In this document: one piece after another, positions 29,899 to 33,212 of the stretch
How positions within the stretch are numbered: the first letter of the stretch is position 1
How the letters are laid out: every line of letters begins with the position of its first letter
Assembly: GCF_000015825.1 (NCBI RefSeq)
Contig: NC_009051.1
Span: 1,792,695 to 1,856,694 of the forward strand
Length of the DNA stretch: 64,000 nt
Direction: 5' to 3'
Source of the DNA: Methanoculleus marisnigri JR1
GTDB taxonomy: Archaea; Halobacteriota; Methanomicrobia; Methanomicrobiales; Methanoculleaceae
Made by a program: the position numbers and the translations under genes
The notes under the pieces: model-generated
What the model was told of the DNA's origin: nothing
The model's input: only the letters and a program-made list of their open reading frames with translations
Databases searched by the model: none

Positions 29899-29938
29899 CG
29901 TTGACATCGGCAATTTTACGTTTTGTTCAGCAACCGCT
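29899..29938 (-). ncRNA. 3' half of the 16S bulge-helix-bulge processing stem
   Basis: Plus-strand CGTTGACATCGGCAAT (29899-29914) and TTTGTTCAGCAACCGCT (29922-29938) pair in the precursor with 31485-31500 and 31461-31477. They give helices of 16 and 17 bp (a few G-U pairs) around an internal loop of about 7 nt per side. Confidence 0.78.
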
Positions 29939-29956
29939 GACCCAAGTAATTTCTTT

Positions 29957-31423
<1,467 letters not shown>

Positions 31424-31460
31424 TTGGAAGTAATGCACACTACTAAACTTGGGAGGAATT

Positions 31461-31500
31461 AGCGGTTACTGAACAAATTTCCGCATTGCCAATGCCAACG
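31461..31500 (-). ncRNA. 5' half of the 16S bulge-helix-bulge processing stem
   Basis: AGCGGTTACTGAACAAA (31461-31477) and ATTGCCAATGCCAACG (31485-31500) on the plus strand pair with 29899-29938. Compensatory G-U and base-pair changes between the two sides support a real RNA helix rather than a chance repeat. Confidence 0.78.
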
Positions 31501-31570
31501 TCAGAATCAACCCGCTCAATGGCGGTCGTGTTGATTCCCCATCACCAGGAGAACAATGTTTATTTTACAA

Positions 31571-31580
31571 CTATTTAAAC
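31571..31580 (-). promoter_or_regulatory. rRNA promoter TATA box, proximal (1 of 6)
   Basis: GTTTAAATAG on the minus strand. A transcription start is expected near 31547, about 125 nt before 16S and upstream of the processing stem. Confidence 0.6.
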
Positions 31581-31703
31581 ATGTTTTCCTGCATCGGATT
31601 CGAGAATGTTCTCGAATCTTCATGTCCTTTTTGAATACAGGGAACGTGACCCGAATCGGGTCGAGAACTTCACCTGCGCGGAGATTAATGTTTGTGCTTC
31701 AAC

Positions 31704-31716
31704 ACATATAAACATT
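31704..31716 (-). promoter_or_regulatory. rRNA promoter TATA box (2 of 6)
   Basis: AATGTTTATATGT on the minus strand, with the same 13 bases found at copies 3 and 4. Followed in the transcription direction by an ACAAACATTAA segment shared with copy 3. Confidence 0.65.
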
Positions 31717-31848
31717 TTCACCCCGCGCTGGGATCCGCGCCGGAGATCCAGAGAGAATCTCCGGCTCGATCGAGGAAATCGCCCGGAATTTTACGTCCCG
31801 GACGCCCTGATACTTCACCTGTGCAGGAACTTATGTTTGTGAGTTATC

Positions 31849-31861
31849 ACATATAAACATT
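31849..31861 (-). promoter_or_regulatory. rRNA promoter TATA box (3 of 6)
   Basis: AATGTTTATATGT on the minus strand, 145 bp from copy 2. The downstream CACAAACATAAGT and CAGGTGAAGT segments are shared with copy 2, so the whole module is duplicated, not only the box. Confidence 0.65.
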
Positions 31862-31979
31862 TGTTCCCACCCGAGTTTCGAGCCGGAAATCAAACACATA
31901 TTCCCGACCCGGACGCCCCGATTCATCCGCATTGCGGATGTTTGAGGAGGCCTTGTGAGAATACATATTGAATCCCCAG

Positions 31980-31992
31980 ACATATAAACATT
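31980..31992 (-). promoter_or_regulatory. rRNA promoter TATA box (4 of 6)
   Basis: AATGTTTATATGT on the minus strand, 131 bp from copy 3, identical in its 13-base core to copies 2 and 3. Confidence 0.65.
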
Positions 31993-32124
31993 GTCACCCT
32001 GCATCAGACCCGAACGAATGTTCGGGCCCTCACAGCGGTTGAAGAGACACGGAATCAGACCACCCACGAAGGGCTGCACGATCCGACGTCCTGACAACAC
32101 AGCCTTACTATGTTATCATCAATG

Positions 32125-32137
32125 CCATATAAGCATT
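32125..32137 (-). promoter_or_regulatory. rRNA promoter TATA box (5 of 6)
   Basis: AATGCTTATATGG on the minus strand, 145 bp from copy 4, a two-base variant of the core. Confidence 0.55.
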
Positions 32138-32270
32138 TCCCTGCTCCGTCGGATCCAAGCGCACGGCTTTGACCCCCATAAACGTTGAGATCTCCCGGCA
32201 TCCTGCACACATCGTGCAGGATTCACGCGGAATTCGCTCCCAACTTGACTATTACATGTTGATACCGGAG

Positions 32271-32283
32271 ATATTTAAACATT
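32271..32283 (-). promoter_or_regulatory. rRNA promoter TATA box, distal (6 of 6)
   Basis: AATGTTTAAATAT on the minus strand, 146 bp from copy 5. It is the outermost, 177 bp beyond the 3' end of scpA. Confidence 0.55.
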
Positions 32284-32459
32284 TACCCAGAACCCATTCA
32301 AAAAAGTGGAATCACGTTGCAAAATCACCCCGATTTGCCACTAAAAGGCTTCACCGGGTATCCGGAGCGCAGGCGAAGACCCATGCGCGCAGCGCCACCG
32401 ATCCCGAATCCCACAGGAATTTCACGGGAACAGAACGATCGGTGTCATATGGTCGAGTA

Positions 32460-33212
32460 TCACGCATCCTCGCCGGCCCCATCGGGACCGTCCTCGGGGA
32501 TCTGCTCGCCGACATAGATCTCGCCGAAGAACTCGTCCTGCCAGAGCGCGAGTTTCCCCTCGAGCATCAGGAAGAGGAGCGGGATGTAGACCTCGCGGCG
32601 ACTTCGCCCCATGGCACCGGAGAGGTCGCCCAGCGTCAGGATATCACCGTTCCGGGCAGCGCGCTGGAACTCCGTCATGACGACCGCAACCGCACCCTGG
32701 TATCCTTCGTCATGCGCCACCGCCACCACGTCTCCGGCGCTGAGGTTGAGATCCGGCTCCCTGGGCACAGAGACCCTTTTGCGCTGCCTGCGACGCTGCT
32801 CCTTCTCCGCCGTCTTCAACTGCTTGATGAGTTCGTAGAGCGTGACCGGCGGACGTTTCCGCAGGTTCTTTCGCCCCAGACGACGCTGGATCTCCCGCTC
32901 CAGGCGCCCCATCGGCTCGACCTCTCCGGCCGACTCGTAATCGAACCCGAGATCCTCAAACGACTCGTCCTCATCGTCGGCAAACGAATCTTCGTCTTCT
33001 TCTTCGCCCCAGCCGTCGAGATAATCCGACTTCAGGCGCAGCAGGCACGCGGCATAAAAGAGCGTCCTCCCCGAGATCCGCAGGTCGAGCTCCTTCCTCC
33101 GGTCGAGTTCGGCGAGGAACCGATCGGTCACGTCCACGATATCGATGTTCCAGGGATCGACCTCTCCCCGCTCGGCCATGCCGGCCAGGATCTCGACAGG
33201 TTCCTCATCCAT
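32460..33212 (-). CDS. scpA: Segregation and condensation protein A
   Basis: The kleisin subunit that bridges SMC heads in the prokaryotic condensin. The 250-residue protein starts MDEEPVEILAGMAERGEVDP, has the kleisin N-terminal helix pattern (WNIDIVDVTDRFLAELDR, then LRISGRTLFYAACLLRLKS), an acidic middle (about 75-105), and a winged-helix C-terminus (GAMGRSRREVYIPLLFLMLE). The start at 33212 overlaps the smc stop by 8 nt. No scpB is next to it. Confidence 0.93.
   Translation of the reverse strand: MDEEPVEILAGMAERGEVDPWNIDIVDVTDRFLAELDRRKELDLRISGRTLFYAACLLRLKSDYLDGWGEEEDEDSFADDEDESFEDLGFDYESAGEVEPMGRLEREIQRRLGRKNLRKRPPVTLYELIKQLKTAEKEQRRRQRKRVSVPREPDLNLSAGDVVAVAHDEGYQGAVAVVMTEFQRAARNGDILTLGDLSGAMGRSRREVYIPLLFLMLEGKLALWQDEFFGEIYVGEQIPEDGPDGAGEDA

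Follow-up and report, generated by a model that had tools for sequence, protein, structure and literature searches.

A tandem array of promoter-like boxes and structured RNA modules ahead of the single rRNA operon of Methanoculleus marisnigri JR1

Why should a single rRNA operon be preceded by six TATA-like boxes at nearly even distances, and what do the sequences between them contribute? We addressed this question in a 64-kb window, the whole stretch of DNA analyzed in this study, which covers positions 1792695-1856694 of the Methanoculleus marisnigri JR1 genome (2.48 Mb; 2,478,101 bp). The genome contained one copy of the rRNA operon, and the leader is likewise single-copy. The operon was arranged in the order 16S, tRNA-Ala, 23S, tRNA-Cys, and 5S, with tRNA-Cys placed between 23S and 5S (positions are those of the window):

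31423-29957, minus strand, 16S rRNA
29890-29817, minus strand, tRNA-Ala
29695-26767, minus strand, 23S rRNA
26658-26587, minus strand, tRNA-Cys
26497-26376, minus strand, 5S rRNA

The gene located 5' of the leader, also on the minus strand and ending at 32460, reads by translation as ScpA and lies behind an SMC protein. The intergenic leader between scpA and 16S spans 31424-32459 and harbors six TATA/BRE boxes on the minus strand, which is the rRNA strand, together with a candidate terminator:

32300..32305, minus strand, T6 run that separates scpA from P1 and is a candidate terminator for the smc-scpA transcript; T-runs of at least 4 lie just upstream of P1 in 12/15 species
32272..32279, minus strand, P1 TATA box TTTAAATA with BRE AAATG upstream, kept in 15 species, between -841 and -863 relative to 16S
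32126..32133, minus strand, P2 TATA box CTTATATG, conserved genus-wide
31981..31988, minus strand, P3 TATA box TTTATATG, conserved genus-wide
31850..31857, minus strand, P4 TATA box TTTATATG, with core dyad AATGTTT..AAACATA
31705..31712, minus strand, P5 TATA box TTTATATG, conserved genus-wide
31572..31579, minus strand, P6 TATA box TTTAAATA, within a ~48-nt imperfect palindrome CAGGAAAACATGTTT..AAACATTGTTCTCCTG

The box-to-box spacings from P1 to P6 were 146, 145, 131, 145, and 133 bp, an evenness (CV 0.047) with a P of about 1e-5 against random placement. Six 13-mers within three mismatches of AAATGTTTATATG were found in the leader, compared with 0.24 expected from dinucleotide shuffles (maximum 4 in 2000), whereas the opposite strand of the leader contained one and the rest of the 64-kb window only two more on both strands. 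The exact 13-mer AAATGTTTATATG occurred twice genome-wide (2.48 Mb), both times in this leader, and AATGTTTATATGT was common to three boxes. These results agree with a preliminary description of the locus, which had reported six minus-strand boxes spaced by 131-146 bp (with coordinates one base off at one end), a core common to three of them, and an extended likeness of two copies; the last was recovered between units 4 and 5 (31667-31717 and 31812-31862) as 80% identity over 51 nt.

Each unit combines a BRE/TATA box with an initiator-like (A)AACAT element, and hairpins were clearest in units 1, 2, 4, and 5. A position-specific matrix, which is descriptive and no independent proof because it was trained on the very sites it scores, resolved the sites into three parts, with the BRE/TATA core AAATGTTTATATG preceded ~10-14 bases upstream by a G-rich stretch and followed, ~19-25 bases past the first T of the TATA box, by an initiator-like element reading AACAT or AAACATT. 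The usual archaeal distance would put transcription starts ~25-30 bases past the box. The extended motif was rejected as a promoter of stable RNAs in general: its other near-matches in the genome sit at other genes, with a two-mismatch match at tRNA-Lys, and those examined were without the initiator arm. Separately, a tRNA-Lys(ttt) gene was observed in two copies ~15.7 kb apart in one genome, with identical upstream promoters (loci L136 and L137).

Leaders were then taken from congeneric genomes, among which 15 species, including M. marisnigri, had a resolved 16S start. In this alignment with related Methanoculleus genomes, a check that the preliminary description had proposed, the boxes were kept across the genus and recurred at about -856, -710, -567, -435, -292, and -156 from 16S in the 15 species. 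Together with one more genome (G016), six intact boxes were present in 16 species, so that M. marisnigri shares them with 15 other single-operon Methanoculleus genomes. The blocks between the boxes were as conserved as the boxes themselves, and the last ~85 bases ahead of 16S were near-invariant in the genus because the 16S processing stem is located there. According to one explanation, the promoter closest to 16S is the only functional one and the other boxes are decaying duplicates, as might be read from the erosion or deletion of some boxes in two-operon and small-genome species. We consider this highly improbable, since conservation across the genus is about as good for P1 and P2 with their RNA modules as for the later units, and sister genera have also kept unit 2.

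The following structured elements were predicted in the leader and at its junction with 16S, where a pair was counted as changed when at least one sequence had both sides altered and the pair retained:

32139..32263, minus strand, unit 1 RNA module, 29 consensus pairs, 14 changed on both sides
31991..32117, minus strand, unit 2 RNA module, 43 consensus pairs, 12 changed on both sides
31585..31696, minus strand, unit 5 structured leader with hairpins GACCCGA/TCGGGTC and GATTCGAGAA/TTCTCGAATC
31504..31537, minus strand, unit 6 hairpin GAATCAACACG..CGGGTTGATTC, immediately before the 16S processing stem
31447..31502, minus strand, 5' strand of the 16S processing stem, predicted to pair with ITS1 (-68 kcal/mol) and hardly varying within the genus
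29899..29947, minus strand, 3' strand of the 16S processing stem, located within ITS1 ahead of tRNA-Ala

The leader runs into the 16S processing stem directly after unit 6, and the complete leader of M. marisnigri folds 13 standard deviations below shuffles (z -13). Apart from the processing stem, no leader segment of the array was better conserved than the unit 2 module, and unit 3 was weakly structured (RNAalifold, -11.5 kcal/mol). The RNAalifold consensus folds of units 1, 2, 4, and 5 were far better than those of column-shuffled controls. In units 1 and 2, 97% of cells were paired compared with 25-46% in slid controls, and none of 500 shuffles scored as high in covariation. As RNAalifold selects G-U-permitting structures, a G-U excess alone is no proof of the RNA strand; better evidence is the modeled energy difference between sense and antisense folds, which were -30.7 and -9.4 kcal/mol for unit 1, -63.9 and -23.4 for unit 2, and -38.9 and -27.0 for unit 5, respectively. 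The predicted folds on the rRNA strand are maintained through compensatory changes, and those in units 1, 2, 4, and 5 indicate selection on RNA pairing.

No match above the gathering score was obtained for 31424-32459 among 4227 Rfam families; the best non-rRNA match in the leader was a snoRNA (E 0.56; 21.9 bits against 57), and permissive thresholds gave nothing real. In the same database, the L4-Archaeoglobi ribosomal protein leader matched a Methanomicrobiales genome (L124:2435-2513, 48.6 bits). The last hairpins of units 1, 2, 5, and 6 (within 31504-31680, 31991-32060, and 32139-32190, minus strand) had conserved flanks, with UGR on the 5' side of the stem and GAY on its 3' side, in which A/U and G/C swap together between units. 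The flanks are UGA and GAU in units 2 and 5, and UGG and GAC, better suited to ordinary pairing, in units 1 and 6. These flanks are possibly one protein-binding or pairing motif; a kink-turn (L7Ae-binding) reading, which calls for a 3-nt bulge with tandem G.A pairs after it, was not adopted, as 2/4 units misfit.

The folds also bear on the spacing of the boxes. The P1-P2 (145-146 bp) and P2-P3 (144-145 bp) distances varied by one base in 16 species despite 75% and 83% identity, respectively, whereas the P3-P4 spacer measured 115-133 bp in the 16 species and 87-97 bp in two others. Strong RNA folds occur in the fixed spacers, and the variable spacer 3-4 has little conserved fold; therefore, the regular period is best read as the length of the RNA module, and the even spacing looks like its by-product. 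The special role previously suggested for the regular ~140 bp spacing is not upheld by a spacer ranging from 87 to 133 bp and by fixed spacers that carry conserved folds. The genome contains two histone genes, and chromatin effects on spacing are possible, but they are needless for explaining the period. An alternative holds that only the multiplied promoters matter, with duplication having raised output, the spacing set for polymerase loading or histone phasing, and the folds incidental. The conservation of six boxes, the near-constant spacings at units 1 and 2, the histone genes, and the loss of boxes in all eight two-operon genomes described below are in line with it, but the compensatory changes in units 1, 2, 4, and 5 and the length tolerance of spacer 3-4 are not, and we regard it as unlikely.

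Tandem Repeats Finder returned only a 27-bp chance array, missing the units because they are too diverged. With filters off, the unit-2 covariance model matched units 1 and 5, and the unit-1 model matched units 2 and 5, all in register (E 0.0008-0.08), although these cross-matches are individually weak (E ~0.01) and shared promoter sequence near the module start may contribute to the likeness of units 1 and 2. Tandem matches were also found in two further genera of the family (L052 and L054). The cross-matches between units therefore suggest an array that arose by old tandem duplication, as had been proposed from the M. marisnigri sequence, and the units appear to descend from one ancestral promoter-plus-leader cassette, within the family as far as the search reached. 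The boxes, their conservation, and the paralogy of the units can be read from the sequences themselves.

The unit-2 model gave one match in each of 24 Methanoculleus genomes (at least 90% completeness), and its carriers include M. sediminis, M. chikugoensis, and Ca. M. thermohydrogenotrophicum. It also matched two sister-genus genomes and had no match in 109 other genomes of the order. Throughout the 135 genomes of the order, the unit-2 RNA was always in cis upstream of 16S and nowhere else. T-runs of at least 5 were depleted inside the array (2 in 15 species, compared with ~11 expected), and no terminator-like site, i.e., a stem followed by a T-run, was found between units. The units might instead be separate small RNA genes, one per promoter, each ending before the next promoter and having roles outside the rRNA operon. 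The compact and highly conserved fold of unit 2, present once per genome and absent from the second operon of two-operon species, would suit such genes; the constant position in cis to 16S and the lack of terminator-like sites or T-runs between units would not, which makes this explanation quite improbable. The array seems arranged to be transcribed without interruption once separated from scpA. Conservation of the RNA between P1 and P2 implies that transcription begins at P1 or upstream of it, and the RNA covariation past P1 lends indirect support to more than one start.

At P4-P6, the initiator arm and the BRE/TATA arm are complementary sequences, as in the P5 core:

31687..31716, minus strand, P5 core dyad AATGTTT..AAACATT, 7/7 pairs in 16/16 species

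The P5 arms occur in three states, AACGTTT/AAACGTT (11), AATGTTT/AAACATT (4), and AACATTT/AAATGTT (1). At least 6/7 pairs were present in 19/20 for the P4 dyad, in 15/15 for the P6 dyad at a register one base shorter, and in 0/26 for P1 (long-array a operons), and the first promoter of short-array (b) operons again tends to the weakest arms (4-6 of 7). No G-U intermediates were detected at P4 or P5. These palindromic cores could be operators for a dimeric DNA-binding regulator overlapping TATA and initiator, and the array would then be regulated. Arms of 7 bp centred ~21 bp apart, the invariant pairing of P5 in 16/16 species, the lack of G-U cells at P4 and P5, and outer arms GCAGGAA/TTCCTGC at P5, at P6, and in b operons are features that such a regulator would explain. 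However, one genome keeps AATG/CATT at P4 but AACG/CGTT or AACA/TGTT at P5, and the first promoter has the weakest arms, which would be expected of arms that function in read-through RNA. A dimeric DNA operator was rejected as the sole cause of the dyads on the basis of these different arm sequences, and the operator explanation as a whole seems rather unlikely. Since the P4 and P5 arms differ within one genome, complementarity itself seems to be what is kept, and the comparison speaks more for arms that pair within the read-through transcript than for a sequence-specific dimer. Complementarity of BRE/TATA and initiator across three sequence states would represent an unusual core promoter constrained by nucleic-acid pairing.

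Eight Methanoculleus genomes had a second rRNA operon elsewhere, with 3-4 boxes and no unit-2 RNA there. In these two-operon genomes (L062-L077), the long-leader operon lies behind scpA and the short-leader operon elsewhere; 6/8 short-leader operons share an upstream context (with a neighbor that is RecB-like by reading), and the other two share another. In the scpA-side array, at least one box was lost or eroded in 8/8 two-operon genomes and in 3/19 one-operon genomes. Six intact boxes were thus present in 16/19 one-operon and 0/8 two-operon genomes (hypergeometric ~7e-5, ignoring descent), a contrast between related genomes for which a poorly resolved single-gene tree gave only two supported independent contrasts. 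The lower number of intact boxes where a second operon exists is suggestive of promoter number compensating for operon number, and it fits dosage tuning, in line with the earlier idea that the array tunes rRNA output. With 3 to 6 promoters and one or two operons in different genomes, the array also lends itself to natural comparisons of leader structure with the numbers of promoters and operons.

Multiple rRNA promoters are known from haloarchaea. The rRNA operon of Halobacterium cutirubrum/salinarum has five promoters, all active and differing in strength (Dennis 1985, cited in PMC4983044), and, as far as that source describes it, resembles M. marisnigri in that several archaeal promoters, all on one strand, precede a 16S-23S operon present in one or few copies. 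Unlike the M. marisnigri array, the Halobacterium accounts, as reported there, give start sites and no covarying RNA modules between them, and none of the haloarchaeal rRNA contigs tested was matched by the unit-2 RNA model. In Haloferax volcanii, three starts were mapped at -185, -293, and -444 from 16S, with spacings of 108 and 151 (PMC4983044); this source describes three promoters for two operons with no regular repeat reported, compared with six for one operon in M. marisnigri. In other families of Methanomicrobiales, 1-5 promoter-like boxes were located upstream of 16S in several genomes (f4 and f6), as in Methanoculleus, but neither a regular array nor a unit-2 match was found, unlike in the Methanoculleus family. 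Bacterial rrn operons have P1/P2 tandem promoters and boxA leader antitermination. Both systems would place tandem promoters ahead of a leader RNA that may promote read-through, although the M. marisnigri promoters are of the archaeal TATA/BRE type and the relation is by analogy only.

Taken together, we consider it probable that the locus is a tandem promoter array feeding a single rRNA operon, with upstream transcripts serving as a structured 5' leader, and, as part of the same explanation, that about six copies of a ~145-bp unit were duplicated in or before the Methanoculleus ancestor. Each box would recruit TBP/TFB and RNA polymerase, so that several polymerases could be loaded onto one operon. 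Transcripts from P1-P5 would continue across the promoters that follow, and a chain of hairpins would form their 5' external spacer. The most likely job of the hairpins would be to keep the long untranslated leader folded and continuously transcribed, avoiding U-rich termination and pairing with the 16S processing stem, at which the leader would be cut off afterwards. Promoter activity and read-through, like the role of the folds, are predictions from comparative sequence data, and some boxes may be weak or silent. Of the preliminary interpretation, the conserved boxes and duplicated units stand and the role of spacing does not; the structured RNA modules and palindromic cores had been missed.

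More tentatively, and with somewhat less than even confidence, each repeat might be an evolving cassette in which a promoter is fused to a cis-acting structured RNA conditioning pre-rRNA elongation or processing, the later promoters being embedded in read-through hairpins and promoter sequence and leader folding being co-selected. The repeated promoter-plus-structured-RNA cassette with palindromic cores was absent from Rfam and not found in the open-access literature searched. If true, the promoter-RNA cassette would be an undescribed class of rRNA-leader RNA limited to the Methanoculleus family. As rRNA synthesis sets growth rate, it bears on how demand can be met from a single rRNA operon in an archaeon and on how a long leader escapes termination.
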